Assembly (NCBI GenBank): GCA_003550275.1
Contig: QXCW01000002.1
Span: forward strand, 372,001-436,000
Reading direction: 5' to 3'
Length of the DNA stretch: 64,000 bases
Origin: Flavobacteriaceae bacterium MAR_2010_72
Lineage (GTDB): Bacteria > Bacteroidota > Bacteroidia > Flavobacteriales > Flavobacteriaceae
Shown here: positions 4,644 to 19,694 of the stretch, one piece after another
Layout of the letters: every line of letters begins with the position of its first letter
Numbering within the stretch: position 1 is the stretch's first letter
The notes under the pieces: generated by a model
What the model saw: only the letters and a program-made list of their open reading frames with translations
The model's database searches: none
What the model was told of the DNA's origin: nothing
Translations under genes and position numbers: made by a program

Positions 4644-4708
4644 TTAACTAGTTTTAATTGAGTTTGGTCGAAAAATGATGGGAATGACATAAATATTTGC
4701 CATATTTA
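4644..4708 (+). promoter_or_regulatory. Weak copy of the LytTR-type direct-repeat promoter
   Basis: TTAACTAGTT (4644) and TGGTCGAAAA (4665) are 21 bp apart. A poor -7 box CATATTTA starts at 4701, 36 bp after the second repeat. Spacing matches the better sites in this window, but the base match is weak. It would drive the STAS gene. Confidence 0.35.
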
Positions 4709-4758
4709 ATTGGAATTCAATTAATAGCCCAAATATTGACCATTAAAACTTATGTTAT

Positions 4759-5040
4759 ATGAATTTGAAAATTACCCACTACAACAATTTCTTTAAAATT
4801 AAAGGGATTCTTAATCAAAAAAACGTACACATTTTTCAAAATGCATTTGCTCATATTTTTGAAACCAATAACGCCGTAACTATAAGTGTTGAAGGTTTAG
4901 AAGGAATCGATAAATATGGTATCAAGGCATTGGCCGAACTCCATGAGCAATCTGTTTCAAAACAAAAATCACTCTCGATTATTGGAATGGGGTGTAAGGA
5001 GTTGTTCAACTTTTTTAAATCTGTTGAAAAGGCTGCCTAA
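4759..5040 (+). CDS. STAS-domain protein
   Basis: 93 residues, a single STAS-like fold with strand-helix pattern (VTISVEGLEGIDKYGIKALAELHEQS). The family includes anti-anti-sigma factors such as SpoIIAA, whose phosphorylatable Ser sits near the position of DKYG here; no obvious Ser is at that place, so partner switching is uncertain. It stands alone, 170 bp after the hydroxyproline operon and upstream of the H-NOX signalling genes. It may belong to that signalling group, but only position and a weak shared promoter motif support this. Confidence 0.65.
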   Translation: MNLKITHYNNFFKIKGILNQKNVHIFQNAFAHIFETNNAVTISVEGLEGIDKYGIKALAELHEQSVSKQKSLSIIGMGCKELFNFFKSVEKAA

Positions 5041-5108
5041 CTACATGATTGTTTTTTGAGTATTGAAATGTAACGTATCAATAATTATTATCTTCACTAA
5101 TACACCAT

Positions 5109-5175
5109 TCATCGACAGAAATGTTGACCTCCACCGATTCTTGATTAAAAAGTATTGCAATTCAAATTAGATTTG
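5109..5175 (+). promoter_or_regulatory. LytTR-type direct-repeat promoter of the 5237 gene
   Basis: Repeats TCATCGACAG (5109) and CCACCGATTC (5131) are 22 bp apart. The -7 box TAGATTTG (5168-5175) starts 37 bp after the second repeat. The predicted transcript would start near 5182, 55 nt before the ATG. Confidence 0.65.
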
Positions 5176-5236
5176 TACCAATAGTTCTCCAAGAAGAGAG
5201 ATTATAAATACAGTTTAATTTAAATTCTTTTTAATC

Positions 5237-5719
5237 ATGTCAAACATTATTTTACTTATATTATTAATCGCTGTAAGTTATTTCATTTTTTTGATAGAAA
5301 GCAAAACTACGATGTTTGGATATGCAAATTTAATAGCTTTCGGAAATAATGACCTGTTTAATCTTTTTCAGGAACTAACTAAACCAAAAAAAGACTTTAG
5401 TTTAAATTTAAATAGAGAAAAGAGTCAGCTTAACGAATTTAGGACAGACTCAAATCAAGATTTGATTGCCAAGACTATTAAACAGCCACTTCATTTAGAT
5501 AAAACAATTACTGCTCAAAGGGAATTGAAAAGCAACTTAAAGCATTTGGAATTAATTTTGGCTTTAGAAACCCCTTTAAGTAATTTAGCTTCAAAAGATA
5601 AGTGTACGGTTGAGCGACTAGAGGAGTTTGTTAAGATTAAAAAAGAAGTCCAATTAAAAATCATTGAATTGTCTCAAACCATATCTGCCTACCAATCAAG
5701 TAAGGTTAATATGTGTTAA
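5237..5719 (+). CDS. Membrane-anchored coiled-coil protein of unknown function
   Basis: 160 residues, not recognised. Residues 3-20 form one hydrophobic segment (IILLILLIAVSYFIFLI) that should anchor the protein in the inner membrane. The remainder is charged and mostly helical, with heptad-like stretches between about 90 and 150. It ends in a Cys. It lies between the STAS gene and the response regulator, and its promoter carries the direct repeats shared by the fibre locus, so it probably belongs to the same regulon. No enzymatic motif is seen. Confidence 0.6.
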   Translation: MSNIILLILLIAVSYFIFLIESKTTMFGYANLIAFGNNDLFNLFQELTKPKKDFSLNLNREKSQLNEFRTDSNQDLIAKTIKQPLHLDKTITAQRELKSNLKHLELILALETPLSNLASKDKCTVERLEEFVKIKKEVQLKIIELSQTISAYQSSKVNMC

Positions 5720-5757
5720 TTTCTTTGCTTATTAAAAGCTAAAAACACTATTTTCAT

Positions 5758-5810
5758 TCGTCGACACTTTTTCTTCATTCGTCGACACCAAACCAATTGT
5801 TTATCGAAAA
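5758..5810 (+). promoter_or_regulatory. Three LytTR-type repeats upstream of the H-NOX signalling operon
   Basis: TCGTCGACAC at 5758 and an identical copy at 5779 are 21 bp apart; both sit in the longer exact repeat CATTCGTCGACAC. A third, TTATCGAAAA, starts at 5801 (22 bp on). No TAnnTTTG box lies at the usual 36-37 bp distance, so the promoter itself is not located. Position before the response-regulator gene suggests autoregulation. Confidence 0.6.
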
Positions 5811-5874
5811 TATTGACGATAATAGACATTTAATGCGCAATTTTAATTTATATTAATCGCTTTATATTGTCTAA

Positions 5875-6288
5875 ATGTCACATAAGTTATCAATTTTGTT
5901 CATAGAAGATGACGTGGTTGAAACCATGAAAATGAATAGAACCGTTAATAAATTACAAACATCTTATAATATTCAAGAGGCCAAAAACGGAGAGGAGGCA
6001 TTACGAATATTAAAGTTAATGGGTCAGCTTCCTGATATTATTTTATTAGATTTGAACATGCCTAAAATAAATGGCATAGAGTTTTTGAAAATTTTAAAAA
6101 ATGATGAAACTCTTAAATATATCCCAACTATTATTTTAACTACTTCAAATAACAGAAAAGATGTATTAGAATGTTATAAAATTGGTATAGCAGGCTATGT
6201 TTTAAAACCCTTAAAGTATGAAGACTACGTTTCGAAACTAGAAAAAATACTAGCATATTGGAGTATTAATGAATTAATAAAAGCTTAA
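5875..6288 (+). CDS. Single-domain response regulator (REC only)
   Basis: 137 residues, one receiver domain of the Rcp1/CheY-like type: acidic pair in FIEDD, phospho-acceptor Asp in ILLDLNMPKING, Thr in LTTSNN and Lys in VLKPLKYEDY. There is no output domain, so it acts by protein contact or as a phosphate shuttle or sink. It is the first gene of a tight operon (1 bp before the H-NOX gene) with kinase and Hpt genes, so it is probably phosphorylated by that kinase. Confidence 0.9.
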   Translation: MSHKLSILFIEDDVVETMKMNRTVNKLQTSYNIQEAKNGEEALRILKLMGQLPDIILLDLNMPKINGIEFLKILKNDETLKYIPTIILTTSNNRKDVLECYKIGIAGYVLKPLKYEDYVSKLEKILAYWSINELIKA

Positions 6289-6289
6289 A

Positions 6290-6829
6290 ATGAAAGGGAT
6301 AGTATTTACAGAGTTTTTAGAATTAGTTGAACAAAAATTTGGTTTGGAAGTTGTTGATGACATCATTGAAAAATCCAATCTGCCTTCACAAGGTGTTTAC
6401 ACATCAATTGGAACCTATGATTTTTCTGAAATGCTTTCATTATTAACGCATTTAAGTGAATCGACGAAAATAAGTATAGATGACTTGTTATTGGTATATG
6501 CCGAACATTTTTTTGCGGTTTTAGCGACTAGTTACCCAGGTTTAATTGAGCAATATAATGACCCAATTGAGATGCTTGCTTCCATTGAAAATCATATTCA
6601 TGTCGAAGTAATCAAAATTTATCCTGATGCAGAATTGCCCACTTTCGAAATATTAGAAAGAACAGAAAATTCACTAATTATGATTTACAAATCAAGTAGA
6701 GCGATGCATTATTTCGGGCTTGGTTTAATGAATAAAACCTTTGAGCATTTTAATTCTAGTGCCGAAATCATCATGAAAAAATTAAAAGAGGATGGTACTC
6801 AGGTAAAGTTCATTATAACAAAAAATTAA
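6290..6829 (+). CDS. H-NOX haem nitric-oxide/oxygen sensor protein
   Basis: 179 residues, a complete stand-alone H-NOX (HNOB) domain. The proximal haem ligand is His104 in HIHVEVIKIYPDAELP, with the conserved proline (Pro117) 13 residues on. The haem-propionate motif YxSxR is intact at Tyr133-Ser135-Arg137. These residues are diagnostic, so haem binding is expected. In characterised bacteria, soluble H-NOX proteins bind NO and inhibit an adjacent histidine kinase. Here the stop overlaps the start of the kinase (TAATG), indicating a paired module. The distal pocket lacks a visible Tyr at the usual O2-stabilising place, which would favour NO selectivity; that point is inference. Confidence 0.93.
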   Translation: MKGIVFTEFLELVEQKFGLEVVDDIIEKSNLPSQGVYTSIGTYDFSEMLSLLTHLSESTKISIDDLLLVYAEHFFAVLATSYPGLIEQYNDPIEMLASIENHIHVEVIKIYPDAELPTFEILERTENSLIMIYKSSRAMHYFGLGLMNKTFEHFNSSAEIIMKKLKEDGTQVKFIITKN

Positions 6830-8826
6830 TGACTGATAAAAAGATTGAAATATTAGAGCGAGCACTAGCAAGAGAAAAGAAGGCTCGTAAAGAAGCTGAA
6901 AAAATTCTTGAAAGCAAAGCATTTGAATTATACCAATTAACCGGTCAACTCAAAGAAAGTAATAATACACTTGAAAGCTTATTAGCCAAAAAAGATCTTG
7001 AATTAAAAGGCGTTTTTAAAAACATAGCCGATGCCTATTGTGTTATGGATATGTATGGTAATGTACTTGAAATGAATGGTGCTACTTTTAATCTATTGGA
7101 TTGTACATCCAAAGAAGATAATATAAATCTTACAGAATTTGTTCATCCAGAAGATGTATCTATTGTTTACAATGTGTTTAATACACTTAAAAAACATGGT
7201 GAATTTAAGGACCTAAAAGTTAGAATAATTTCTTATAAAAAAATTGTAAAGCATATTCATATTAGTGCCAGTATAATTTTTAATTCAGAAGGCAAAGCAA
7301 TAGCTGTGCAAGGGATTGCTAGAGACATTACTCAAGAAAATAAATTAAAAGAAGGTATAATAGAATCTGAAAGCCGATTAAAAGTACTTATAGGAAATTT
7401 AGATAGTGGTGTTTTACTGGAGGATGAAAACAGGAGAATCGTACTAACCAATAAGAAGTTTTGTAAATTGTTTTCTATACCTGTTGATCCTGATTTATTA
7501 ATTGGACAAGATTGTTCAGGTTCAGCTGAACAATCTATGAGCTTGTTTAAAAATCCAGAAGAATTTGTATCTAAAATTGCTGCTATTGTAGAAAATAAAA
7601 AAGAAATTCTATCTGAAGAGATAATAATGGCGGATGGTAAAATACTAGAAAGAGACTATATTCCTATTTTTAAAAATGAAGAATATAAAGGCCATCTCTG
7701 GACGTATCGAGATGTTACCTTACAGCGTAACTACAGTAAAAATTTAGAAGCCGAAAGGCATAAATATAGTAGCATTATAGCCAATATGAATTTGGGGCTA
7801 ACCGAGGTCAATAATAATAATGAGATTGTTTTGGTTAATCAAAGTTTCGCTGAATTGACAGGTTATTCGGAAAAAGAACTCTTAGGCATGAATGCTTTGG
7901 ACGTTCTCATTCCTGAAACAGATAAGGAATCAGTTACTCAACTTGCAGATAATACTAGAGCCGGACAATCCCAATCTTTAGAAATGCGCATAAAGGATAA
8001 AAATGGAAAAATAAAATCAATTATTGCTAGTTCTGCACCTAATTATGATGATAAAGGAAAGGTCGTTGGGTCCATTGGAGTGATTTTAGATATCACTGAA
8101 ATTAAGAATTTAGAAAAGGAAAAGGAAATTTTATTGGAAAATCTCGCCAATAGTAATAATGAACTTCAAGAATATGCACATATTGTATCGCACGATTTAA
8201 AATCTCCACTTCGAAGTATCTTTGCCCTTGTATCGTGGATAAAAGAAGACAATGAAGGAAACTTAAATGCAAGTAGTTTAGCGAATATTTCATTAATTGA
8301 GTCTACTCTTGAAAAGATGGAGCAATTAATTACAGATATTTTAAATTATTCAAGTGTTACATCAGAATCAAGTTTAGGCAATCCTGTTGATTTGAATATT
8401 GTTGTGCAGGATCTGCAACAAATCTTATATGTTCCCGAGCATATTGACATAAAGGTTTTGAGTAAGTTACCAATTATTGTTGGAGATAAAACAAGGCTGC
8501 AACAATTATTTCAAAACTTAATGAGCAATGCCATTAGGTATATTGATAAGCCTGTTGGAAAGATTACTATAGATGTGAGCGAGCAATTAACACACTATCA
8601 ATTTTCTATAGCAGATAATGGAATTGGAATTGCAAAAGAATACCATGACAAAATATTTAAAATATTCCATTCCCTAAACGACAGAAAAGAATCTACAGGC
8701 GTTGGGCTTTCTATTGTGAAAAAAATTGTTGATTTATACAAAGGTGAAATATGGTTAGAAAGTATTCCAGGAAAAGGAACGACTTTCTTTTTTACATTAA
8801 AAAAAGAAAATGAAAGAGAAGCCTAA
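6829..8826 (+). CDS. Soluble PAS histidine kinase, probable H-NOX partner
   Basis: 665 residues with no transmembrane segment. Order: N-terminal coiled coil (1-55, ALAREKKARKEAEKILE), three PAS-type domains (about 57-170, 180-300, 310-430), a HisKA domain with phospho-acceptor His455 in SHDLKSPL, and a HATPase domain (about 530-660) with N box (LMSNAIRY), G1 (DNGIGI) and G2 (GVGLSIV). The cytoplasmic location fits control by the soluble H-NOX protein encoded directly upstream with overlapping stop and start. It lacks a receiver domain, so signal would pass by the Hpt protein or directly to the response regulators encoded next to it. Confidence 0.9.
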   Translation: MTDKKIEILERALAREKKARKEAEKILESKAFELYQLTGQLKESNNTLESLLAKKDLELKGVFKNIADAYCVMDMYGNVLEMNGATFNLLDCTSKEDNINLTEFVHPEDVSIVYNVFNTLKKHGEFKDLKVRIISYKKIVKHIHISASIIFNSEGKAIAVQGIARDITQENKLKEGIIESESRLKVLIGNLDSGVLLEDENRRIVLTNKKFCKLFSIPVDPDLLIGQDCSGSAEQSMSLFKNPEEFVSKIAAIVENKKEILSEEIIMADGKILERDYIPIFKNEEYKGHLWTYRDVTLQRNYSKNLEAERHKYSSIIANMNLGLTEVNNNNEIVLVNQSFAELTGYSEKELLGMNALDVLIPETDKESVTQLADNTRAGQSQSLEMRIKDKNGKIKSIIASSAPNYDDKGKVVGSIGVILDITEIKNLEKEKEILLENLANSNNELQEYAHIVSHDLKSPLRSIFALVSWIKEDNEGNLNASSLANISLIESTLEKMEQLITDILNYSSVTSESSLGNPVDLNIVVQDLQQILYVPEHIDIKVLSKLPIIVGDKTRLQQLFQNLMSNAIRYIDKPVGKITIDVSEQLTHYQFSIADNGIGIAKEYHDKIFKIFHSLNDRKESTGVGLSIVKKIVDLYKGEIWLESIPGKGTTFFFTLKKENEREA

Positions 8827-9130
8827 TCTAACTTATATAAATGCTTTGTCAGGAGGTGATATTGAATTTGAAAAAAAATTAATCAATATCATTAAAAAAG
8901 AATTTCCAATTGAAAAAGAAATTTATTTTAAAAACTTAAAAGAAAAAAAATACCAAGAAGTTGCAGAAAACGTACATAAACTTAAACATAAAATCATTAT
9001 TTTAGGCCTTGAGAACAGTTATGAACTTGCAGTAACTTACGAAAACAATTTAAAGGAAGGCAGCCTTGACCTTAAAGAAGATTTTCAAATCATACTCAAA
9101 AGCATGACAAATTTTTTAAACACCCTTTAA
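8810..9130 (+). CDS. Hpt-domain phosphotransfer protein
   Basis: 106 residues, all helical. The motif VHKLKHKIIILGL places the phospho-acceptor at His56, matching the Hpt pattern HxLK...G. The gene overlaps the end of the kinase gene by 17 bp and precedes the first LytTR regulator by 8 bp, so it is translated from the same message. Hpt proteins carry phosphate between a receiver and another receiver, so it likely links the single-domain regulator and the LytTR regulators, or the kinase and both. Confidence 0.85.
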   Translation: MKEKPNLTYINALSGGDIEFEKKLINIIKKEFPIEKEIYFKNLKEKKYQEVAENVHKLKHKIIILGLENSYELAVTYENNLKEGSLDLKEDFQIILKSMTNFLNTL

Positions 9131-9138
9131 TTTTATTT

Positions 9139-9852
9139 ATGACTAGTATTATTATTGATGATGAAGAGACGGCAAGGACAATTCTTGGGCAATTGTGCTC
9201 AAATATTAATGGATTAGACGTAATTGATGAGTTTTCAAATGCGATGGACGCGATTAAATTTTTAAATAAAAATGAAATCGACCTTATTTTTTTAGATATT
9301 CATATGCCCGACTTTACAGGGTTCGATTTTATTCAAACCTTGAAAAATCCTCCTAAAATAATTCTAATAACTTCCGATAAAAATTTTGCTATTGAGGCTT
9401 TTGAATATGAATGTATTGTAGACTATTTGGTGAAACCGTTATCATTACCTAGGTTTATAAAGGCTATTAATAAAGCAAAATCATTTAAGATAGAATCTCA
9501 AGAAACAAGTACAACTTCACCTAATATTAATGTCTCTTCAGATAGAGAATTATTCGTGAATATTGACCGTCGATTAATAAAAATTGACATTCCTACCATA
9601 AAATTAATTGAAGCTAAAGGAGACTATATTTTGTTGAAAACGGATTCTCAAAACTATACAGTGCATTCCACTCTTAAAAAAATTGTTGAAAAACTTCCCG
9701 ATTCGCAATTTTTAAAAGTCCATAGGTCGTATGTTATTAACACCAGTAAAATTATCGATATTGAAGATAATAGTGTGTTAATAGATAGGGATGTCATACC
9801 TGTAAGCCGATCTAATAGACCCGAATTAATGAGGCGTCTTAATTTACTATAA
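9139..9852 (+). CDS. LytTR-family response regulator 1
   Basis: 237 residues: receiver domain (1-115, phospho-Asp in LIFLDIHMPDFTGFDFI, Lys in YLVKPLSLPRF) joined to a C-terminal LytTR DNA-binding domain (about 135-237, with IEAKGDYILLKT and LKVHRSYVINTSKI). LytTR proteins bind direct repeats spaced about two helical turns apart. It is the last gene of the H-NOX/kinase/Hpt operon and is paralogous to the regulator at 9992. It is a candidate binder of the direct repeats found throughout 4.6-19.7 kb. Confidence 0.95.
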   Translation: MTSIIIDDEETARTILGQLCSNINGLDVIDEFSNAMDAIKFLNKNEIDLIFLDIHMPDFTGFDFIQTLKNPPKIILITSDKNFAIEAFEYECIVDYLVKPLSLPRFIKAINKAKSFKIESQETSTTSPNINVSSDRELFVNIDRRLIKIDIPTIKLIEAKGDYILLKTDSQNYTVHSTLKKIVEKLPDSQFLKVHRSYVINTSKIIDIEDNSVLIDRDVIPVSRSNRPELMRRLNLL

Positions 9853-9901: not shown

Positions 9902-9966
9902 TCGACTATTCAATTCAGTGCTCTATCGAAAAATTATAATACAAATTTAAACCGTACTTATTTTTG
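9902..9966 (+). promoter_or_regulatory. LytTR-type direct-repeat promoter of LytTR regulator 2
   Basis: Repeats TCGACTATTC (9902) and CTATCGAAAA (9923) are 21 bp apart, followed by -7 box TATTTTTG at 9959-9966, 36 bp after the second repeat. The transcript would begin about 19 nt before the ATG at 9992. Suggests autoregulation or control by the upstream paralogue. Confidence 0.6.
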
Positions 9967-9991: not shown

Positions 9992-10693
9992 ATGAATTGT
10001 ATTATAATAGATGATGAAGCCGCTTCTAGAAGTATTTTGTATAAACTCTGCTCTAAAGTTAATGACCTTTTTGTAGAAGATGAATTTGAAAACCCTACAG
10101 ATGCTTTAGTGTTTTTAGAATTGAAAAAGGTAGATTTTATCTTTTTGGATCTACACATGCCCATGCTCAATGGGTTTGACTTTATAGATGTTTTAAAAGA
10201 TCCTCCAAAAATTATTCTCACTACTATTGACCGTGAATCGGCAATAAAAGCTTTTGAATACAAATGCATTGTTGATTATTTAGGCAAACCTTTTGAATTT
10301 CCGCGTTTTATAAATGCATTAGATAAAGTTACAAGAGCGATTAAGATTACAAATCAATCACAAACTATTGGCGACTATGATTTAGAAGATATATTTATAA
10401 ATGTCAATAAAAAACTTGTAAAAATTGCATTAAATGATATTGATTTTATAAAAACAGATTCAAAAGGAATTAAGCTTTGCACAAACAATAAAACCTATAT
10501 TGTGAAGTCCTCTCTCAATAAAATTTCAGATAATTTACCTAAATCTCTATTTTTAAGAGTTCACCAATCTTTTATCATTAATATTTCTAAAATAATAGAT
10601 ATTAAAAATGGACATGTATTAATAAATGATGTACGTATACCTATTAGTAGATCTCGTAAATCGGAATTATTGGGCAGAATAAATTTGTTTTAA
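9992..10693 (+). CDS. LytTR-family response regulator 2
   Basis: 233 residues with the same layout as the preceding regulator: receiver (phospho-Asp in FIFLDLHMPMLNGFDFI) and LytTR domain (about 130-233, LRVHQSFIINISKI). One difference is YLGKPFEFPRF where the paralogue has YLVKPLSLPRF; the receiver Lys is kept. It is separated from the first regulator by 139 bp that hold its own promoter with direct repeats, so it may amplify the response. It lies directly upstream of the fibre locus, which makes it a likely dedicated regulator. Confidence 0.95.
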   Translation: MNCIIIDDEAASRSILYKLCSKVNDLFVEDEFENPTDALVFLELKKVDFIFLDLHMPMLNGFDFIDVLKDPPKIILTTIDRESAIKAFEYKCIVDYLGKPFEFPRFINALDKVTRAIKITNQSQTIGDYDLEDIFINVNKKLVKIALNDIDFIKTDSKGIKLCTNNKTYIVKSSLNKISDNLPKSLFLRVHQSFIINISKIIDIKNGHVLINDVRIPISRSRKSELLGRINLF

Positions 10694-10754: not shown

Positions 10755-10820
10755 TCATCTACACTAAACGTTTGCTCATCGAAATTGCAATCTCAACTTA
10801 AACCCCTTAACATACATTTG
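10755..10820 (+). promoter_or_regulatory. LytTR-type direct-repeat promoter of the first fibre-subunit gene
   Basis: TCATCTACAC (10755) and TCATCGAAAT (10776), 21 bp apart, then TACATTTG (10813-10820) 37 bp after the second repeat. This is the best match to the shared layout. Predicted transcription start about 30 nt before the ATG at 10856. Confidence 0.75.
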
Positions 10821-10855: not shown

Positions 10856-11485
10856 ATGAAAAAAATTAACCTACTTACAATGGCATTATTAGCACTGGGT
10901 GCACAAAATGCAATGGCTCAAGACAATGATGACACCAATGTGGATCAACATGAATTACAAGTGTTAGTGCAAGAAGTTGCATTACTAGACATTTGGGATG
11001 CAAGTTTAGCTACACCAGCCGATGTTGGCGTTATTACGTTCGACATGGCAGATGCTACAACTGTTGGAACAAATGCAGAAGCAGGTCTTTATGACTTTAC
11101 TGCATTATCTTACGACGATTTGTGGTTAAATTACACAAGTGTTGTTTCTGCAGCTGAACCAACACGAAACATTTCTGTGAGGTTCAACGGTGGTTCATTC
11201 CCAGGTGGTGTGAAATTAGCGATTACACCTCAAGAGTCAACTGTGGAAAATCCAGACAATGGAGTTCCTGGAACAATTGATACAGCTAACCCAATAAAAC
11301 TTGGAGCAAATGATATTGTTACTGGAGCAGCACAAAACATTGTAACCCAAATTGAAAGTGTGTACACAGGAGATGAAGCCTTTGGTGTAAGACTTAATTA
11401 TACAATTGAGCAGTTTGGAAGTTTCGCTGGTTATATTGCTGGTAACTATTCAACTCAAGTTGTATATACGTTATCAGATTTGTAG
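10856..11485 (+). CDS. Secreted beta-rich fibre-subunit-like protein 1
   Basis: 209 residues with a cleavable signal peptide (cut after NAMAQ, residue 22). The mature part is beta-rich, with DLWLNYTSVV near residue 88 and a terminal strand YSTQVVYTLSDL. The same core, D-[LI]-W-[LI]-N-Y-T, occurs in the subunit at 16505, and all three subunits end in a VxYT-type strand, so I infer one structural family resembling WxL or pilin-like subunits. It has its own promoter and a strong terminator, so it is probably made in excess as the main subunit. I do not recognise a named family. Confidence 0.65.
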   Translation: MKKINLLTMALLALGAQNAMAQDNDDTNVDQHELQVLVQEVALLDIWDASLATPADVGVITFDMADATTVGTNAEAGLYDFTALSYDDLWLNYTSVVSAAEPTRNISVRFNGGSFPGGVKLAITPQESTVENPDNGVPGTIDTANPIKLGANDIVTGAAQNIVTQIESVYTGDEAFGVRLNYTIEQFGSFAGYIAGNYSTQVVYTLSDL

Positions 11486-11501
11486 TAAACAATTTTTACC
11501 C

Positions 11502-11535
11502 CAAAAAAAAAGCCCTTTTTAAAGGGCTTTTTTTA
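11502..11535 (+). terminator. Rho-independent terminator after subunit 1
   Basis: A GC-containing stem (AAAAGCCCTTT / AAAGGGCTTTT) flanked by A and T runs, 20 bp after the stop codon. It separates subunit 1 from the chaperone-usher operon. Confidence 0.9.
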
Positions 11536-11658
11536 TGCGCTTTATTTATGAGAAGGAAGTGAATAGTTATATACAACTAATTTTTACTAATGTCAACATA
11601 AATAAACAGCAATTTCTTTCAGTTGCTATGAAAACGTTAATAGGGCATGAAATACTAC

Positions 11659-11723
11659 TGACCGACACATAAATGCCAATTAACGAAAGAGAATTTATTC
11701 TTGGTGAAAAGACCATTTCTTTG
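11659..11723 (+). promoter_or_regulatory. LytTR-type direct-repeat promoter of the chaperone-usher operon
   Basis: TGACCGACAC (11659) and TTAACGAAAG (11680) are 21 bp apart. The box TTTCTTTG (11716-11723), one mismatch from TAnnTTTG, starts 36 bp after the second repeat. The transcript would begin about 38 nt before ATG 11768. Confidence 0.55.
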
Positions 11724-11767
11724 TTAAACCAAGACGGTACTTAAAAATAAATCTAAAAATCTTTTAT

Positions 11768-12556
11768 ATGAAATCAATTACATTATCATTTATTAGTTTT
11801 CTTTTTTGCATTCAAATAATGCAAGCTAATGTTGTAATCATAAATGGACTTACACATTCTTTTTCAGGAGTTTCAGGACAGACGTTTCAAGGACAAATAA
11901 TGCTGGCTAATACATCTAATGTAGATCAACGGGTAACCTTTGATTTAAGTGAAGCTATTTATACTTGTGCCGATGGTAGAGTTTTTACAAAAGAAACAAT
12001 GCATGAAAACTCTTCAACAAATTGGTTTGAAAGTTCTACAATGGATAAAGTATTGGCTCCAAAAGAGAAATACATATACAAATACAGTATTACAATACCT
12101 AATGACGCAACTTTAAATGGGTCTTATTGGACAACACTAATGGTAAATGTTGATAAACCAATTAGAGAAGAAGTAGTTAGTAGCATAGGTTTAGATACTA
12201 AAATAAGATATGCTATTCGACTTTTAACTGATGTTAATGTAAAAGAAGAAGTTGATATCGATTTTGAAGGAGTTAATTTAAGTATTAACTCGGTTAACAG
12301 AAAAAGACAGTTAGAAATAAAAGTTCTCAATCAAAGTATTTTTATTGAAAACGTGAAATTATCATTAGAGATTTTTGATACTTATGGTAATCTACTCCTA
12401 GATACAGAAACAAAAAGAGCAAAAGTGTTCCCAGAAGTCTGTAGAGATTTTATTATAGATGTATCAAAACTCCCACAAGGTACATATCAATGCGTGGTTA
12501 TGGCTGACTCTAGAGATGAGTATGTTGGTACTAATATGAGTTTAACTATAGAGTAA
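11768..12556 (+). CDS. Periplasmic Ig-like chaperone (PapD/DUF916-like)
   Basis: 262 residues with a signal peptide (residues 1-20). Two Ig-type beta domains are apparent. The first shows the pattern of pilus chaperones and DUF916 proteins: a boundary strand, TSTNWFESS, then LAPKEKYIYKYSITIPNDATLNGSYWTTLMV. The second spans about 150-262 (LEIKVLNQSIFIENVKLSLEIFD). Such proteins hold secreted subunits before assembly. It is encoded just before the usher-like protein and two subunit-like proteins, which supports the chaperone role. Sequence similarity is general, so an adhesin or WxL-interacting role is possible. Confidence 0.6.
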   Translation: MKSITLSFISFLFCIQIMQANVVIINGLTHSFSGVSGQTFQGQIMLANTSNVDQRVTFDLSEAIYTCADGRVFTKETMHENSSTNWFESSTMDKVLAPKEKYIYKYSITIPNDATLNGSYWTTLMVNVDKPIREEVVSSIGLDTKIRYAIRLLTDVNVKEEVDIDFEGVNLSINSVNRKRQLEIKVLNQSIFIENVKLSLEIFDTYGNLLLDTETKRAKVFPEVCRDFIIDVSKLPQGTYQCVVMADSRDEYVGTNMSLTIE

Positions 12557-12600
12557 ACAAGAAGCACCCCTTAAATCTATTACCCTAAACAGAAGAAATT

Positions 12601-15600
12601 ATGAATAAATACCTACTTTTTACGCTACTAGCTCCTCTTTTTATATTTGCTTGCGCTAAAGAAGTGGAGGAAAATATTGAGTTTTTGGAAGAATTAGAGC
12701 TAGATAATAATATAGAAGCTTTTAATACTTCAGAAAAAAATGACTCTAATTTAGATTCTGTTATGGTAATGAGCCAACTGAAGATATCTAAAAATAACAA
12801 AGAAGCTTTTAAACAAGACGACCTTGCCAAAAAAACAAATTCAAAAGCTGAAATAAAGCAAGATCAGATTGAAAGAAATACTGAATCTAACAAGGTTGCC
12901 TCTAATATTCCCAGCACTATACATAAGTTTAAAAAAGAAGGCGAAGTAATTACTAAAAACAATTCTTTTACTGAAGAGATTGTATCTAATAACACAAGGC
13001 CACAAAGCTATGTGAGTCAGAATAAGAGTATAGTCAAAAAAGATAGAATATTTAAGTTAGACACTCTCTATTTTGATGATGTTATAGAACAAAACAATAA
13101 CAAATATGATTCTTTAATTTTAAGTATAAACAGAGTAGAGGAGCAATTAATGCAGTTAGTATCTCAAAATAAAGAGATCAATAAAAAAAGTAGAGCATAT
13201 AAAGCTGATACAATATTTTTGGATGAGGCTTATGTCTATAATACTAATTTAAAAGAAAGTAAAAAACTCTCAAATTTATCTCAATTAAGAGATAACAATA
13301 AGTTAATAGCAAGTCTTCCGAACAAAGACAATATTCCAAAAAACATTTTTGAAGTTTCAAAAAAGGAAGTGCAAAATAAGGTAAATACTAATGATAGTAT
13401 TGAAAGAGAGTCTTTTAAAGCAAAAGAGAATAATCAAGCAAAATCAAATAATAATTCTGTGGAGAGGACCTTTAGATCTAATCTAAATAATGGAGGCAAT
13501 TACAAAAATACAAGCAATCGTAAAGACACAGAAATAGAAGAGAATGAAATAACGGCATTGTTTACAGATCCAGCCGCGCATAAAAAGAAGTTTAAAAAGG
13601 AAAAACCATTAAATTCTAAATTAAAAGTAGAAGCCTATAAAAATTCTACTCAAAATACATTGAGTTCAACTATTAATAAAGCTGAAGCTAAACCTGTTAT
13701 AAATACAAAGCCTGTAAGAAAAACCAATACCCCTCTAAAAGAAGTATTAAAACCGATTGAAGTAACCACCACAGTTAAAAACCTAGAAACACCATTAAAG
13801 AACGCTTCAAAGGTAAATAGACCGGTATTAAACAACGCTTTTAAAAGAAACACATTAAATAACAATGAGTTTTATGTAAAGCTAATGCGCAAACAAAGTT
13901 CATATAAAACTAATGAAAATCATACCCTATTAATAGAAGTTACAAATAATGGAGATTATATAGAGCCAATAAATTTAGTTGCAGATTTGCCTCAAGATTG
14001 GAAACTCATTTCTATAAGCCCTTTAGTTTCTTTAAATGCTAATGAAAAAAAGATTAGTTTAGTAAGTTTTTATATTCCTACTCAAAGTGCACCTGGAAAC
14101 ACAAAAACAACTTTTATATTAAAAACTAACAACTATAGTATTCAGTCTTTTGACTTTGATCTAAATGTTGAAGATAATTATGATTTAGAAGTGTTTAATA
14201 TTTCCGCACCAAAACAACTGGAAGCAGGAGAAACTATTGAGGCATTTTATGGTATACGTAATAAAGGAAATGTTTCTCAAGAGTTGAGTTTAACATCTAG
14301 AAATACTATAGATGGAGAATCGAAAATTTTGATCCCTAAAGATTCAACAATTGTTGTAAAAATTATTCAAGAAACTAATTCTAAATCAAATACATTTAGA
14401 AAACTATCAACAAACTTAGATGTATTAAGCAATGCTTCTGGTAAGACATATTATAACTCAAAATCGGTTGATGTTATACCTACAAAAATTGCTCAAAAAG
14501 ACCCATTTTTAAGGTTTCCAGTACAAGCAAGTTTATATTACAGCAGCTATACTAATAACAACGACCATTATTCAACAATGTCAGCAGAACTTAAAGGAAA
14601 TGGTTTTTTAGACGAAGCTAGAAATCACCATTTAAACTTTACAATACGGGCTCCCAAAAAGGAAAACTTAAGACGTTTTAGTATTGTTGACCAATATAGT
14701 TTAATCTATAGATACAAGAATAAAGCTACTTTATATCTTGGTGATCATTCTTATTTCATTAATAGGCTCGGTTTTGGTTCAAGATACGGAATGGGCTTTA
14801 AATTAGATTATAATATTAACAAATGGACATTATCGGCTTTTTATAGCAAGCCTAGGTTGTACAACTATAGATCTAAAGCTTTATACGGTTTAAGGGCCGA
14901 CTATTTTATGTCTGATACCCAAAATATTGGTATCACATTAGAAAAATCTCAAGGTAATGTTTATACCTATAGAAACCTTTTTAATGAACAGGGTAAAGGG
15001 CAAATATTAACTTTAGACTATGATTATCAGGATGATAATACTTTTGTAGAGGCCGAACTTTCAACAAGTTTTAATGGTAAAAAGATAGATTACGCTACTA
15101 ATTTTAACATTAGCCAAAACGTTAAAGACTTTAGATATAGTAGTTATTTATTATATGCAAGTGAAAATTATTTAGGTAATATTTCTAACAGTATACAACT
15201 CACAAATAGCTTATATTATAATAGAAAAAGTTTTAATGTTGGTGTGGGACATGCGTTGTCAAGAGTTAACAGACGTTTAGATCCTGAATTGTTTGAAACA
15301 GAGCCGTATTATGAAAATTATTTTGCATCATTGGGTTACAGGTTTACTGGTAAACACTACCTTAATTTTAGATTTGATAAGCGTATTAGAGAAGACCAGT
15401 TAATGCCTAAAAGCTATCATTATGAGGAATACGGGTTTAATTATAATTTTGTGTATACCGATAAATTATTTACCGGAAGCTTTGGTGGGCGTTTTGCAAA
15501 ATCTGAAAATTTATTAACAGCCGAAACAAATTACAGAAACACTTATACTCATCATTTAAATGTGTCTTATCTACTGTTTAAAAACTTTACGTTGAGAGGC

Positions 15601-16515
15601 GGCCTAAACCACATATACACTGGTCGTTATGGCCTTTCAGATGAAAGCATAAATTTTGTGAGATATAATTTTGGATTTAATTACAGAATAAGTAAATGGT
15701 TACGTGCAAACGGTAATTTTAATAGCGGATTTAGTCCAGAAGAAGATTATAAACGAAGAGATTATATTAATTTCAATCTCATTGCTCAAGTCAATAGGCG
15801 TCATCGTTTTGAGGCTCGTGCAAATTACTTTGAAAGACCAGGAGTTGTTAATAATAAAGAATTGTATGCTTTTGGTAAATACACCTACACATTTGGCGTT
15901 CCAGTAAAAAGGATTTTAGAACAAGGCGGTGTAAGGGGATCTGTCTATACAAACAATAAAGATATTGATATAAGAGGAATAAAATTATATACAACTGGTA
16001 AGGCTATTATGACTGATAGATATGGAAATTTTGAGTTGAATAATTTGCCTATTGGAACTAATTATATTTTTATTGATGATTCTTCTTTACCATTAGACGT
16101 CGTCTCAAAAATTAAAAATCCGATTGAAATTAAAGTCGAGGCTGATAGGACAACTGACCTTGGAATTGAGCTAATGCGTTCAGGTTCACTTTACGGTAAT
16201 TTAAAATTACTTAATAGTGATCGAGCCATAGATACAAATTTAGAGAGTTATGTAAAGTTGGAAAATAAAGATTTTACATACTATACTGAAGCGAATAATA
16301 AAGGTGAATTTAAGTTCCAAAATATCGTTCCAGGTGATTATAAATTCACTCTCATTAGATTTAAGAAAAATGACAAGTTGTTTAAACTTGTTAAAGAAAA
16401 AGATGTAACTGTTAAAGAAGAAATTGATACCAATTTAGAAATTAAAGTAACAGGTAAAGAAAGAAAAATAAGGTTTAAAAACAATAATTTAAAAGTAGTA
16501 TATAATGAAGATTAA
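12601..16515 (+). CDS. Usher-like outer-membrane beta-barrel lipoprotein
   Basis: 1304 residues. Order: lipoprotein signal with Cys at about residue 18 (LFIFACAKE); a long Asn/Lys/Ser-rich, probably disordered region (20-415); two Ig-like NEW3/CARDB-type domains (about 425-625); a beta-barrel of alternating aromatic strands (about 640-1140, including YLGDHSYFINRLGFGSRYG); and two small carboxypeptidase-regulatory-like domains (about 1140-1300, TDRYGNFELNNLPIG). The order barrel then C-terminal beta domains, beside a chaperone and subunits, resembles a chaperone-usher system, so I infer an export pore for the fibre. No clear PapC family match is visible. The stop overlaps the next subunit gene by 11 bp. 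Confidence 0.55.
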   Translation: MNKYLLFTLLAPLFIFACAKEVEENIEFLEELELDNNIEAFNTSEKNDSNLDSVMVMSQLKISKNNKEAFKQDDLAKKTNSKAEIKQDQIERNTESNKVASNIPSTIHKFKKEGEVITKNNSFTEEIVSNNTRPQSYVSQNKSIVKKDRIFKLDTLYFDDVIEQNNNKYDSLILSINRVEEQLMQLVSQNKEINKKSRAYKADTIFLDEAYVYNTNLKESKKLSNLSQLRDNNKLIASLPNKDNIPKNIFEVSKKEVQNKVNTNDSIERESFKAKENNQAKSNNNSVERTFRSNLNNGGNYKNTSNRKDTEIEENEITALFTDPAAHKKKFKKEKPLNSKLKVEAYKNSTQNTLSSTINKAEAKPVINTKPVRKTNTPLKEVLKPIEVTTTVKNLETPLKNASKVNRPVLNNAFKRNTLNNNEFYVKLMRKQSSYKTNENHTLLIEVTNNGDYIEPINLVADLPQDWKLISISPLVSLNANEKKISLVSFYIPTQSAPGNTKTTFILKTNNYSIQSFDFDLNVEDNYDLEVFNISAPKQLEAGETIEAFYGIRNKGNVSQELSLTSRNTIDGESKILIPKDSTIVVKIIQETNSKSNTFRKLSTNLDVLSNASGKTYYNSKSVDVIPTKIAQKDPFLRFPVQASLYYSSYTNNNDHYSTMSAELKGNGFLDEARNHHLNFTIRAPKKENLRRFSIVDQYSLIYRYKNKATLYLGDHSYFINRLGFGSRYGMGFKLDYNINKWTLSAFYSKPRLYNYRSKALYGLRADYFMSDTQNIGITLEKSQGNVYTYRNLFNEQGKGQILTLDYDYQDDNTFVEAELSTSFNGKKIDYATNFNISQNVKDFRYSSYLLYASENYLGNISNSIQLTNSLYYNRKSFNVGVGHALSRVNRRLDPELFETEPYYENYFASLGYRFTGKHYLNFRFDKRIREDQLMPKSYHYEEYGFNYNFVYTDKLFTGSFGGRFAKSENLLTAETNYRNTYTHHLNVSYLLFKNFTLRGGLNHIYTGRYGLSDESINFVRYNFGFNYRISKWLRANGNFNSGFSPEEDYKRRDYINFNLIAQVNRRHRFEARANYFERPGVVNNKELYAFGKYTYTFGVPVKRILEQGGVRGSVYTNNKDIDIRGIKLYTTGKAIMTDRYGNFELNNLPIGTNYIFIDDSSLPLDVVSKIKNPIEIKVEADRTTDLGIELMRSGSLYGNLKLLNSDRAIDTNLESYVKLENKDFTYYTEANNKGEFKFQNIVPGDYKFTLIRFKKNDKLFKLVKEKDVTVKEEIDTNLEIKVTGKERKIRFKNNNLKVVYNED

Positions 16516-17101
16516 TAATATAAAAAATAAGATACTATGTAGTTTTGTGTTGTTCACTTTTGTTGGATTTGCCCAAGAAACAGTTAATGGGTCAGATATT
16601 AATAGCTTTATTATAGGTGGAGGACAGGAAACAACACCAGCAACCTTATTTCTTAATGACGTTGCTATTGTAGATGTGTCGCCAGAAGGACAGGCTGTTA
16701 TTGCTGACGGAGAGAGTTTGCTTTTAGAAGCAGGCCTACCAATTTTAGCTGGTGGAACGTCAGATTTCGTTCCAGATATCTGGATAAACTATACTTATCG
16801 TCCAGCAAATCCACTCGATCAGGCTGAAATATTTATTAGAACGAGCCAGCCACTTCCGGCTGGAGTTACGTTAAATGCAAAAGTGATTGAGAAAAGTGTT
16901 GGAGGCAATTTTGATGATAGAGGGGTGAAAAAAGATTTATCAGTTGATGAAACAAACAGTAAAATTGTAAGAACTTTTGGTGCAGGGTATACCGATGATG
17001 GTGTTACTAATGGCTATAAAATTCAATATACATATTCCAATACAGGAAGTGAAGAACTACCACCAGGGTTTGCAATTATTTATGAAATAATAATAAAATA
17101 G
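16505..17101 (+). CDS. Secreted fibre-subunit-like protein 2
   Basis: 198 residues with a signal peptide (about 1-24, FVGFAQ). The mature protein has the core DIWINYTYRP and PAGVTLNAKV, which aligns with DLWLNYTSVV and PGGVKLAI of subunit 1. It ends with a strand, GFAIIYEIIIK. It overlaps the usher-like gene by 11 bp, so its translation is coupled to it. Likely a minor or tip subunit, given a shared promoter with the assembly proteins rather than its own. Confidence 0.6.
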   Translation: MKINNIKNKILCSFVLFTFVGFAQETVNGSDINSFIIGGGQETTPATLFLNDVAIVDVSPEGQAVIADGESLLLEAGLPILAGGTSDFVPDIWINYTYRPANPLDQAEIFIRTSQPLPAGVTLNAKVIEKSVGGNFDDRGVKKDLSVDETNSKIVRTFGAGYTDDGVTNGYKIQYTYSNTGSEELPPGFAIIYEIIIK

Positions 17102-17106
17102 ACAAG

Positions 17107-17709
17107 ATGAAACAATATTTAAATTATATCCTATTCATTATAGGAATTCAATTTGTTACGGCTCAAGTTCAGGATGGTACCCTTACCATAAATGGAACTG
17201 TAGATTTCTCTCAAGTTACCGCAACCATGGAGGCAGGATTAAACGATACAGAGAGCTTTAATAGTGCAGTACAGCCAGAATTATCATTTATATTAAACCC
17301 TACAACTAGCCCGCTTTTTGGCGTAACTTCTAGTGAACAAAATTGTGAAACGGTTTATCTTTATAAGGTTTTTATACATACCACTGGTGCGCCAACAGGA
17401 GCAATAGTAAAAGCAAAGACCTTTGACAATAGTGGGCAACGATTCCCCTTGGTGAGTGTTTATGATACATTACTCCCAGTAGCTCAATACTTTGGGCCAA
17501 GAGATTTAACAGCCGAAACTAATGGCGCTGATGCTGATGGCTTTATAACTATACCTAATGATGCCACACAAGCCATTAAAGTTTTTGAGTTTAAAGGTTG
17601 TAGGCAAGATATCCCTATTGAATTTAAGGTGTCTCCAGATGTGTTTACGCCTTCAGGAACATCTAGCTTTAATGTGGTTTATACTATTACTGCAGAACCA
17701 TTTAGCTAA
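17107..17709 (+). CDS. Secreted fibre-subunit-like protein 3
   Basis: 200 residues with a signal peptide (about 1-19, cut after VTAQ). The protein is beta-rich, contains two Cys that may form a disulphide (NCETVYLY and GCRQDI), and ends in the strand SFNVVYTITAEP, as in the other subunits. It starts 5 bp after subunit 2 and closes the operon. It is more diverged, so a tip or anchor role is possible. Family not recognised. Confidence 0.55.
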   Translation: MKQYLNYILFIIGIQFVTAQVQDGTLTINGTVDFSQVTATMEAGLNDTESFNSAVQPELSFILNPTTSPLFGVTSSEQNCETVYLYKVFIHTTGAPTGAIVKAKTFDNSGQRFPLVSVYDTLLPVAQYFGPRDLTAETNGADADGFITIPNDATQAIKVFEFKGCRQDIPIEFKVSPDVFTPSGTSSFNVVYTITAEPFS

Positions 17710-17767: not shown

Positions 17768-17833
17768 TTATCTATACAAAGGCTAATCTCATCTAAAGGC
17801 GTCCCAAGTACTTACAAATAGAGCCTATATTTG
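17768..17833 (+). promoter_or_regulatory. LytTR-type direct-repeat promoter, small transcript 1
   Basis: TTATCTATAC (17768) and TCATCTAAAG (17789) are 21 bp apart; the -7 box TATATTTG (17826-17833) starts 37 bp after the second repeat. No coding frame follows. Confidence 0.7.
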
Positions 17834-17838
17834 ATATA

Positions 17839-17945
17839 TAATTACGAACAGATTTAAACTTTTTTTGTCCCTAGAATAAAATTACTTAACCTTACTTAGC
17901 TTTAAAACTCATTCTTTTCAATTAGTAAAAGGAATGGGTTTTTTT
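17839..17945 (+). ncRNA. Candidate small RNA 1 (about 105 nt)
   Basis: The interval runs from the predicted start after the TATATTTG box to a rho-independent terminator at 17903-17945 (AAACTCATTC ... GAATGGGTTT then T run). It contains no ATG-initiated frame, so a noncoding RNA is the simplest reading. Its terminator stem (AAACTCAT) is shared with candidate RNA 2 and both have the same promoter layout, suggesting a small family. Confidence 0.5.
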
Positions 17946-18520
17946 ATACGTGGTGGTATTTTAATCTTAAAATAAGCTTTTAACAGTCACGCCGATATGA
18001 GATGTGTTGCAAACGCAGCATGCATCAGCAAAAGTAGCCTTTAACTATTTATTCGCTTATCCCTAGTTGGAAATTTGTGCCTTAGGCACAGGTCGAATAT
18101 GCAGACGTACTACCTTCAGGTGGGGCATTTAGCAGATACAGTTGACACGTATTGTCATTGAAGCTTGCCGAAGGCATTGTTCCTCAACTATGTTTTGTAG
18201 GAGGTTTAATCCGCACGATCTTTTGATTAAAATATTTCAGTAATTGTTTTTCGAAGCCGTGCTTTTTGGATTTTGTAAATTATTTATTTGATGATCATCT
18301 TGCATCACCTAAAAGGGCCTTGATACTCTTTTAAATAGGAATGACCCTATTTTATCAGAGTTCTTATTTTTAAATAATCTTGTTTTTTTGGAGCCCCTTC
18401 TATTGATGGGAGATAATTAGTTGGCTGTTTAATTACAAACTTAATATAGTAATTGGTGTATGATGATTAGCTTGAAGTTAGTATGAAAGCAATCTAAAGC
18501 TAATAGATAAGTGTAAAAAA
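17946..18520. other. Gene-free stretch with a short hairpin
   Basis: No plausible gene. A perfect small hairpin, TGTGCCTTAGGCACA, lies near 18076-18090. The part at 18050-18200 has a more coding-like base pattern than its surroundings but is broken by stops in every frame, so it may be a decayed gene. No homology recognised. Confidence 0.4.
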
Positions 18521-18523
18521 GAA

Positions 18524-18553
18524 GAATGGGTTTTTAAAATTAAAAACCCATTT
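18524..18553 (-). terminator. Terminator after the CAP lipoprotein gene
   Basis: Near-perfect stem AATGGGTTTTTAA / TTAAAAACCCATT. Read on the minus strand it is followed by CTTCTTTTTT, and it lies about 65 bp past the stop of the minus-strand gene. Confidence 0.65.
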
Positions 18554-18616
18554 GAGTAATTGAGAGAAGATTAAATCTAAATTGGTAGATCTAAATATAA
18601 AGGTATAAACAACGGA

Positions 18617-19117
18617 TTAATTGTTTGTGTTCATGAAAATGTTCGTGAAGTACCATTTGTCATTGTTATCTTGTTCTGCCGTGATATTAAAGTGAGTATA
18701 ATCTCCCTCAATATTTAACCGGTGTGTTTCACTATTTAACCAAGCATTAAACACCGATTGTGCATTTGAGTAACCACAAGCCACATTTTCTGAGACTTTA
18801 TTAGCACTTGCGTGGGTAATTAAGTAGCTCTTTCTTATAAAAAAATTGTCATGTGAAGCGCTCTCGTTTGTAATCATGTAATTAGTGTGTTTGGCAGTTT
18901 GTGTTCTTATTTGTTCATTTTTAAGTAAAACAGATAAGTCTTTAGTTATTCTATATGCATTGATTAATTCTAAAATTTCAATTTCAATAGACTTAATTTC
19001 CTCTAAAGAGGCAACATTTTCAACTAAAATTAATTCGGTTTCAGGAGCTTCAGTCGAACAGGACGTTATCATTATATTTAAGGTTAATAAACAGGTAATA
19101 AGGGCAACTCTTTTCAT
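18617..19117 (-). CDS. CAP-domain (SCP/PR1-like) lipoprotein
   Basis: 166 residues. Lipoprotein signal with lipobox MITSC (Cys about residue 20). The rest is a compact CAP domain: INAYR in the first helix, HTNYMITNESASHDNF, ENVACGYSNAQSVFNAWLNSETHRLNI and a terminal YFTNIFM. The HDNF and ENVA residues match the family's cavity motifs. CAP proteins in bacteria are secreted and of mostly unknown role. It is divergent from the fibre operon but its promoter has the same direct-repeat layout, so it is probably co-regulated with it. Confidence 0.85.
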   Translation of the reverse strand: MKRVALITCLLTLNIMITSCSTEAPETELILVENVASLEEIKSIEIEILELINAYRITKDLSVLLKNEQIRTQTAKHTNYMITNESASHDNFFIRKSYLITHASANKVSENVACGYSNAQSVFNAWLNSETHRLNIEGDYTHFNITAEQDNNDKWYFTNIFMNTNN

Positions 19118-19140
19118 GACATATTGATTTTATTATGATG

Positions 19141-19205
19141 CTAAATTATACCTAGAATGACCTCTATTTATTGTTTTTCGACGAGTAGGCTTTTACTGTA
19201 GTTGG
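19141..19205 (-). promoter_or_regulatory. LytTR-type direct-repeat promoter of the CAP lipoprotein
   Basis: On the minus strand CCAACTACAG (19205-19196) and TCGTCGAAAA (19184-19175) are 21 bp apart. A -7-like box TAATTTAG (19148-19141, one mismatch from TAnnTTTG) starts 36 bp after the second repeat. The ATG is 24 bp beyond. Confidence 0.6.
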
Positions 19206-19330
19206 TTGGAATTCAATTAAAGATTAATGCTATTTTGGCAAGAAAGTGTCTTGTTAGGATATTGTTTATAATTGGAAGTTTTCTCTAATAAAAATGTAAA
19301 CTATTCGGTAGAACCCTTGAAAATGTTTAT

Positions 19331-19395
19331 TCAGCTAAAGCAAAACGTCATTCATCTAAATAGTTTATTAACTGAACATATTTAAAATAGATTTG
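19331..19395 (+). promoter_or_regulatory. LytTR-type direct-repeat promoter, small transcript 2
   Basis: TCAGCTAAAG (19331) and TCATCTAAAT (19352) are 21 bp apart; TAGATTTG (19388-19395) starts 36 bp after the second repeat. Confidence 0.7.
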
Positions 19396-19400
19396 TGGTA

Positions 19401-19504
19401 TAAGAAATGCAATTGATATAGTTAAAATAATAAGCGGTTAAGATTTTATAATCAATGTGTTTCTGATTAAAACTCATTCTTCATTTAGAGGGATGAGTTT
19501 TTTA
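19401..19504 (+). ncRNA. Candidate small RNA 2 (about 100 nt)
   Basis: From the predicted start after TAGATTTG to a terminator at 19468-19504 (AAAACTCAT ... ATGAGTTTT then T). No credible coding frame. It shares the promoter layout and terminator stem with candidate RNA 1. Confidence 0.5.
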
Positions 19505-19629
19505 GTTTTAATACCTTATGATTTTGGAAGTACCAGTTTGCGTATCTACTATATTTTTGTTGTTGGTCTATGTTAGTAATACATCAAATATAGCGTCGTA
19601 AATGCCATTCAACTATAGATATTGAAGTC

Positions 19630-19694
19630 TTGTCTACAGTTATTGGTTAAATATCTAATAATTAGTTTGGCGTCCTTGATTTCGATTACTTTTG
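19630..19694 (+). promoter_or_regulatory. LytTR-type direct-repeat promoter, small transcript 3
   Basis: TTGTCTACAG (19630) and ATATCTAATA (19651) are 21 bp apart; TACTTTTG (19687-19694) starts 36 bp after the second repeat. The second repeat is a moderate match. Confidence 0.55.

Follow-up and report, generated by a model that had tools for sequence, protein, structure and literature searches.

Does a single regulator account for a promoter layout that recurs through one neighbourhood of the genome of Flavobacteriaceae bacterium MAR_2010_72? In a 64,000-nt stretch of this genome (contig QXCW01000002.1, positions 372,001 to 436,000; hereafter the window, in whose coordinates all site positions are given), an initial annotation had noticed eight sites with two 10-bp direct repeats followed at a fixed distance by a TAnnTTTG-like box, and had assigned them to one LytTR regulon. 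All eight sites are present at the positions it named (5109, 9902, 10755, 11659, 17768, 19331 and 19630 on the plus strand and 19205 on the minus strand), and the fixed spacing holds at each of them: the repeat pair has a period of 21 bp at seven sites and 22 bp at one (5109), and the box starts 36 bp after the second repeat at five sites and 37 bp after it at three. Six of the eight boxes are exact matches to TAnnTTTG, the deviants being TTTCTTTG (11716) and TAATTTAG (19148, minus strand), while the repeats, put in register, are TCATCTACAC-like. A single LytTR regulon is the reading best suggested by the repeat period and the promoter-proximal position, by the way the sites accompany one LytTR gene across the family, and by the clustering of the genome's top matches here. 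We consider it very probable that the sites are operators of one LytTR regulator, encoded at 9139, that would be addressed by a nitric oxide (NO) phosphorelay through H-NOX, kinase and Hpt proteins and would activate surface genes, its own operon and short RNAs.

Five of the named sites head genes. Repeats at 5109 and 5131 and the box TAGATTTG at 5168 form a predicted promoter (5109–5175, plus strand) of the gene at 5237; those at 9902–9966 (box TATTTTTG at 9959), 10755–10820 (box TACATTTG at 10813) and 11659–11723 (box TTTCTTTG) lie on the plus strand before the second LytTR gene at 9992 and the genes at 10856 and 11768, and the site at 19141–19205 on the minus strand (box TAATTTAG, 19148–19141) precedes a CAP/SCP-like gene at 18617–19117. 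A further operator at 5758–5845 on the plus strand has three repeats (5758, 5779 and 5801; score 17.1) and heads an operon encoding a response regulator and H-NOX; the three repeats had been noticed before, but the box then reported missing is present in weak form (CAATTTTA at 5838, 37 bp after the third repeat). The remaining three named sites, all on the plus strand, do not head genes, as the initial count of eight to ten controlled genes had implied, but short terminator-ended units: 17768–17833 (box TATATTTG at 17826), 19331–19395 (box TAGATTTG at 19388) and 19609–19694 (box TACTTTTG at 19687), the last with repeats at 19609, 19630 and 19651. Since the extra repeat at 19609 lies 21 bp upstream of that at 19630, this is also a three-repeat site. 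The proposed weaker copy at 4644 scored 6.2, no better than chance, and was discarded. Above a score of 14.5 the only additional match in the window was at 5779, followed by one of 14.3 at 29409.

The same arrangement is conserved in relatives, where sites also precede the response regulator/H-NOX operon, equivalents of site 10755 are present in five related genomes, the equivalent of site 11659 precedes the orthologous gene in five related genomes (L070/L158, L150, L152, L154 and L156), and CAP-like genes lie downstream of sites in the loci of five relatives.

Chance as the source of this layout was rejected on leave-one-out scores, matrix-versus-control counts and a spacing-free test. Each site was scored with a matrix that excluded it and drew on the remaining seven; with 4 Mb of order-3 Markov sequence as background, the expected number of equally good matches per window on both strands was 0 for 5109, 10755, 17768 and 19331 (none in 4 Mb), 0.03 for 9902 and 19205, 0.16 for 19630 and 0.35 for 11659. 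Across 80 related loci (1,548,128 bases), retrieved with the second LytTR protein (LytTR2) as query, the eight-site matrix gave 197 matches above a score of 18 versus 1 for a column-reversed control, with 43 when only the box was reversed and 1 when only the repeats were reversed (overlapping matches 21 bp apart counted separately throughout). After merging, 202 sites scored above 17, and 196 of these were on the same strand as the LytTR gene. In the spacing-free test, which took single strong repeats from 79 loci (the Mariniflexile locus L070 left out) and imposed no distance rule, 152 pairs were 21 bp apart and 13 were 22 bp apart, with 0–20 at every other distance, the 20 falling at 42 bp, where three repeats place them. 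The column-reversed control gave 0 to 12 per distance and no peak at 21 bp. Measured from 416 strong pairs, TAnnTTTG started at offsets of 36 (n = 25) and 37 (n = 17), and at 57 (n = 22) and 58 (n = 8) in three-repeat sites, compared with a mean of 0.35 per position outside 35–38 that includes the 57/58 peak.

We also scanned the 3.41-Mb genome, using a sequence-only model built from 60 sites of other genomes (all with 21/37 spacing and a score of at least 20, again without L070). The six best matches in the genome were window sites, namely 10755 (E = 6.4e-7), 5109 (1.2e-5), 19331, 17768, 19205 and 19630 (E up to 0.02), the last of these aligned over repeats 19609 and 19630. The seventh (E = 0.057) lies elsewhere.

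Sites and regulator also go together across the family. Among 299 Flavobacteriaceae genomes, a LytTR2 match at E 1e-45 marked 112 as LytTR-positive; no more than nine candidates were scored in any one genome. A best site at E ≤ 1e-4 was found in 90 of the 112 positive but in 3 of the 187 negative genomes (Fisher p = 8e-51, phylogeny ignored), and at E ≤ 1e-6 in 75 of 112 versus 1 of 187, so that in these counts the sites accompany the regulator and are rare elsewhere. The sole exception at the stricter threshold (G195) carries a LytTR1 of 72% identity with an adjacent site, and was missed as a positive because of the limit of nine candidates.

Which LytTR protein would bind these sites? Two genes lie amid them on the plus strand, as the initial annotation had pointed out, encoding LytTR response regulator 1 (LytTR1, 9139–9852) and its divergent paralogue LytTR2 (9992–10693), both with receiver (PF00072) and LytTR (PF04397) domains above the Pfam cut-off. 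The two are not equivalent, however: LytTR1 is conserved, with 65–84% identity between the window protein and its aligned counterparts, whereas two relatives have no LytTR2 that could be found (G112) or a short remnant match (G301) and nevertheless keep sites before their 10856- and 11768-like genes. For this reason LytTR1 is the likelier binder. That the sites instead belong to LytTR2 or to another LytTR protein is an improbable reading, which could draw on the position of LytTR2 amid the sites, on its own site and on the ten LytTR domains encoded in the genome; across the family, the sites accompany loci of the LytTR1 type. Two arrangements among relatives were observed besides. In one genome (G130, locus L152, 10977–13242) the Hpt and LytTR1 genes are duplicated as a pair, so regulator duplication may have occurred more than once, and in a distant relative (G353, locus L161, 4150–6400) another LytTR gene is followed directly by two 10856-like genes.

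The conserved LytTR1 gene, whose product is the likely binder on these sequence comparisons, belongs to an operon on the plus strand that also encodes a single-domain response regulator (5875–6288; Pfam 1.2e-22), an H-NOX (haem-NO-binding) protein (6290–6829; Pfam HNOB 5.1e-40), a PAS-domain histidine kinase recognized by Pfam (6829–8826) and an Hpt-like phosphotransfer protein (8810–9130), the last found at the same place in relatives. An H-NOX gene beside histidine kinase domains is the arrangement of an NO phosphorelay, and in other bacteria H-NOX acts on its kinase. In tblastn searches, all 80 loci gave matches to Hpt, the receiver and LytTR1, while the kinase was matched in 78 of them and H-NOX in 73; the receiver matches may be to the LytTR protein's own domain and several of the seven loci lacking H-NOX are short or end near the gene. 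A second likely NO sensor is present in many relatives, since a NosP-like gene was matched by tblastn in 46 of the 80 loci and in L154, with none in L150, L152 or L156. The identity of this gene was checked with Pfam in one locus (L075), which encodes a FIST/NosP protein with its own second kinase; the NCBIfam NosP model fell below cut-off for this FIST protein. Together, the H-NOX, kinase and Hpt operon and the NosP-like gene in 46 of 80 loci make NO the probable signal.

The position of the repeats suggests how the regulator would act. In F. psychrophilum, the TAnnTTTG box occupies −12 to −5 (PMC9723704). By the same measure, the first repeat would lie near −69 and the second near −48, on the immediate upstream side of the promoter, where LytTR activators bind. 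Known LytTR sites are direct repeats separated by 10–13 bp and usually located immediately ahead of the promoter (PMC6193735, PMC11347149), and the window repeats, 10 bp long with a 21- or 22-bp period and close to the core promoter, have this form. Activation is thus the mode of regulation that the layout best suggests. The opposite case, a repressor operator or an upstream promoter element that is unrelated to LytTR or is used negatively by it, has a precedent in CoxC, a LytTR protein reported to act as a repressor at a site whose three repeats cover the −35 box (PMC11347149). We regard it as highly improbable here: the repeats are placed ahead of the promoter core and are also present at the regulator's own operon, and genomes with the sites tend to have the regulator.

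Several observations weigh against operators of a single LytTR1 regulon fed by NO. Repeats alone, searched genome-wide with three mismatches, gave 157 matches versus 156 for the backward pattern, and this search was dropped in favour of repeats plus box. With the other-genome model, which was trained exclusively on 21/37-spaced sites, 11659 (0.17, weak alone) and 5758 (0.23) rank low, and 9902 is absent from the matches listed up to E = 10. Across the family, 22 of the 112 LytTR-positive genomes had no site at 1e-4 and two of the exceptions among negative genomes (G003 and G157) have LytTR matches only at greater distance (40 and 37% identity); both labels contain errors because positives were defined by LytTR2 matches at E 1e-45 with at most nine candidates each, the two-by-two table ignores phylogeny, and the 299 genomes probably include some donors of the training sites. 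Since the loci were retrieved through LytTR2 and the sites picked with the window matrix, neighbourhood and motif are not wholly independent. In addition, the Hpt match (E = 0.0067) falls short of the Pfam cut-off, tblastn gave no NosP-like match in the window, and the repeats are unlike the AgrA consensus.

Taken with these reservations, LytTR1 as the common regulator gives the following mechanism. H-NOX, probably joined by NosP in many relatives, would sense NO and alter kinase activity, and phosphate would pass via Hpt to the LytTR protein. LytTR1 would then bind the repeats, usually a pair and sometimes three, which are spaced by two helical turns and come closest to the transcription start with one beginning at about −48, and it would activate promoters whose −7 box is that of the main sigma factor. 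The regulator operon would feed back on itself, and the other targets would be exopolysaccharide, STAS-protein and secreted adhesin-like protein genes, in this clade the operon with a chaperone-like protein, and short terminator-ended RNAs. Such a shared switch would probably let marine Flavobacterium relatives change their surface coat on sensing nitric oxide.

The genes downstream of the sites point to surface functions. In 85 sources (79 of which have one), we identified 227 merged sites scoring above 17, and 208 were followed within 450 nt by an ATG frame of at least 50 codons. The largest downstream groups, named from their printed members and from Pfam searches of ten example proteins, were the response regulator/H-NOX operon or LytTR genes (53), large proteins (35), STAS proteins (33) and glycosyltransferases (28), followed by 8 genes like 5237 in place (function not assigned), 7 flippases and 6 each of CAP-like, 10856-like and 11768-like genes, window included. 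Pfam recognized FIST/NosP with the second kinase, STAS, polysaccharide flippase and glycosyltransferase among the examples, as well as a type-IX-secretion sorting domain in three large proteins. The usual predicted output in relatives is therefore exopolysaccharide and secreted surface proteins, and that of the window's clade is the 10856–17709 operon.

This putative target operon (plus strand) comprises 10856 and 11768, each with its own site, and 12601 (1,304 aa), 16505 and 17107; from the gene layout, we infer that 12601–17709 is co-transcribed with 11768. The predicted fold of the 11768 product (11768–12553) best matched WxLIP (Foldseek E = 1.1e-13, template modelling score 0.51; Z = 16.4, root-mean-square deviation 6.5 over 230 residues), with pilus chaperones next (Z 11–13), a predicted resemblance based on fold matching. 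For 10856 the predicted structure was poor (mean predicted local distance difference test score, 60) and had no match in the PDB at E 0.001. As a side observation, the operon could be a surface-fibre system in a Gram-negative clade; no Pfam WxL match was found among the neighbours of 11768. At 4759–5040 on the plus strand, the window also encodes a 93-aa STAS-domain protein (Pfam STAS 1e-4, just under cut-off); STAS genes are a main target of the sites in relatives, and this copy has no credible site. Its leader holds, at 4721, TTAATAGCCCAAAT, identical to that in one Mariniflexile unit.

What, then, do the three sites without genes control? With the transcription start placed as in F. psychrophilum, where the box spans −12 to −5 (PMC9723704), the first would direct a predicted small RNA of about 110 nt (17838–17946), ending in an intrinsic terminator (−10.4 kcal/mol) and having a longest ATG frame of 4 codons, open at the unit end. 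The second, of about 105 nt (19400–19505), also ends in a terminator and has a longest ATG frame of 4 codons. The third unit (19699–19924; all three on the plus strand) likewise ends in a terminator and contains a possible 32-codon frame at 19747–19845, the product of which would be lysine-rich.

Comparable units are common among relatives. Across 87 sources, 43 of the 279 sites above 14.5 lacked a frame of 45 codons within 160 nt, and a terminator followed within 320 nt at 32 of these 43 (four of them L159 duplicates of L070 units, and some inside genes) compared with 37 of the 236 sites with a frame. Five such units stand in tandem in Mariniflexile (L070, 18551–20459), a cluster occurs in G112 (L154), and a unit of about 70 nt directly follows LytTR1 in Winogradskyella, Psychroserpens, Lacinutrix, Bizionia and others, with its terminator about 160 nt past the stop codon; the sites of units adjoining LytTR1 often fall below the matrix threshold. 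Relatives' units often carry TTAATAGC ahead of the terminator. This element followed sites in the retrieved loci 12 times versus 3.0 expected, most of its 219 occurrences being elsewhere and many inside genes, and TAATAGC was the most enriched 7-mer in the 35 nt before 1,853 distinct terminators from 86 sources (35 versus 5.8 expected), although not all of these occurrences belong to LytTR units. In an alignment of 15 units, 7 of 10 terminator pairs had changed on both sides in at least one sequence. By prediction from sequence alone, therefore, the units have the attributes of a multicopy small-RNA family: their own promoter, no long frame, a terminator and several copies.

A model of the RNA 3′ part built from these 15 units (R2) had a match at E ≤ 1e-3 in the 300 nt that follow LytTR1 in 19 of 84 sources, seven of them outside the training set, one being a near-copy of a trained sequence. 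R2 matched neither the window nor the genome it comes from, the window units have little sequence in common and do not contain the exact TTAATAGC seen in relatives, and the 19630 unit may encode its 32 codons, all of which would fit decayed gene copies or unused promoters instead of RNAs. We think this rather unlikely, given the terminator excess at frameless sites and the retention of promoter plus terminator in the Mariniflexile tandem copies and in copies beside LytTR1 in other genera. Candidate small RNAs thus remain our preferred reading of the three units. As for their targets, there was no clear enrichment near 1,310 gene starts in these neighbourhoods, either of the complement GCTATTAA (5 versus 3.2 expected) or of TTAATAGC itself (6 versus 2.9 expected), and Rfam at the gathering score revealed one tRNA in the window, one in six scanned loci and no other family.

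The 3′ element has a wider family. Of the 299 genomes, 52 had an R2 match at 1e-3, and the matches included units that adjoin a purE-like gene as well as positions in LytTR-negative genomes; because of these matches, and because it misses the window's genome, R2 was rejected as a genome-wide finder of LytTR RNAs. Several matches at 13.4–14.8 kb in the loci lack an upstream site and may be the 3′ ends of the preceding gene. When R2 matches were tested for an upstream site, 11 of 42 scored worse than −15, with p values that are a guide only because the null contains real sites (99th percentile, 33). In four relatives (L183–L186, near the middle), R2 matched a conserved unit pair whose neighbours we take to be a purE-like gene and a large gene, presumably for a peptidase. 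The genome under study has one such unit (L187, about 1978–2150), with TTGATTAATAGC before a terminator-like hairpin. Across L183–L187, these small-RNA-like units carry GATTAATAGC before the terminator, and in the relatives CATTTNATCKA-like repeats stand ahead of the second unit, where inspection by eye suggests a possible further LytTR site. LytTR units and the purE-side unit may share targets or a protein partner. About as likely as not is a family-wide circuit in which NO sensors would act through the LytTR protein on small RNAs that lie in tandem or in clusters and share UUAAUAGC just ahead of their terminators; with the element also beside a purE-like gene and at some apparent mRNA ends, these RNAs would act in trans on common targets or titrate a common RNA-binding partner. 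If true, this would be a Qrr-like circuit in a phylum with few such circuits known.

LytTR regulons and NO phosphorelays are known as kinds, whereas their combination, the operator and the RNAs appear to be new; no earlier description of the operator, regulon or RNAs was found in the literature searched (open-licence papers, with most subscription papers outside its scope). The analysis specifies exactly how operator and promoter are arranged for a Flavobacteriaceae LytTR regulator and connects H-NOX, together with NosP, with particular surface genes as targets. It also predicts small RNAs whose starts are placed to within a few bases, so that NO signalling in a major marine bacterial family can be tested directly.

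Among known systems, the predicted fold of the 11768 product resembles Enterococcus WxLIP and PapD-like pilus chaperones, although it differs from WxLIP in its Gram-negative host, about 13% identity, loose superposition and neighbours without a WxL match. Qrr of Vibrio is a multicopy small-RNA family. FopS of Bacteroides comprises 14 paralogues acting on surface transporters (PMC11697453). Like both, the predicted RNAs here would be several paralogous short RNAs with a shared element; unlike them, they would be under LytTR control, lie in tandem or beside a LytTR gene, and match no Rfam family across the window and six scanned loci. AgrA- and ComE-like operators are of the LytTR response-regulator kind. 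As in the LytTR operators of S. mutans, RcoM and CoxC, direct repeats occur here in twos or threes, spaced by about two helical turns close to the promoter, and with autoregulation (PMC6193735, PMC11347149), but in this system they are CCATTCATCTACA-like, coupled to Bacteroidota −7 promoters, predicted small-RNA targets and a probable NO phosphorelay. On the signalling side, the H-NOX and NosP phosphorelays that control biofilm in Vibrio, Shewanella and Pseudomonas share with this system an H-NOX gene adjoining a kinase, a putative Hpt-like protein, surface or exopolysaccharide outputs and, in L075, a FIST/NosP protein with its own kinase; this system would differ from them in having as its output a LytTR transcription factor with a defined predicted operator rather than a cyclic-di-GMP enzyme.

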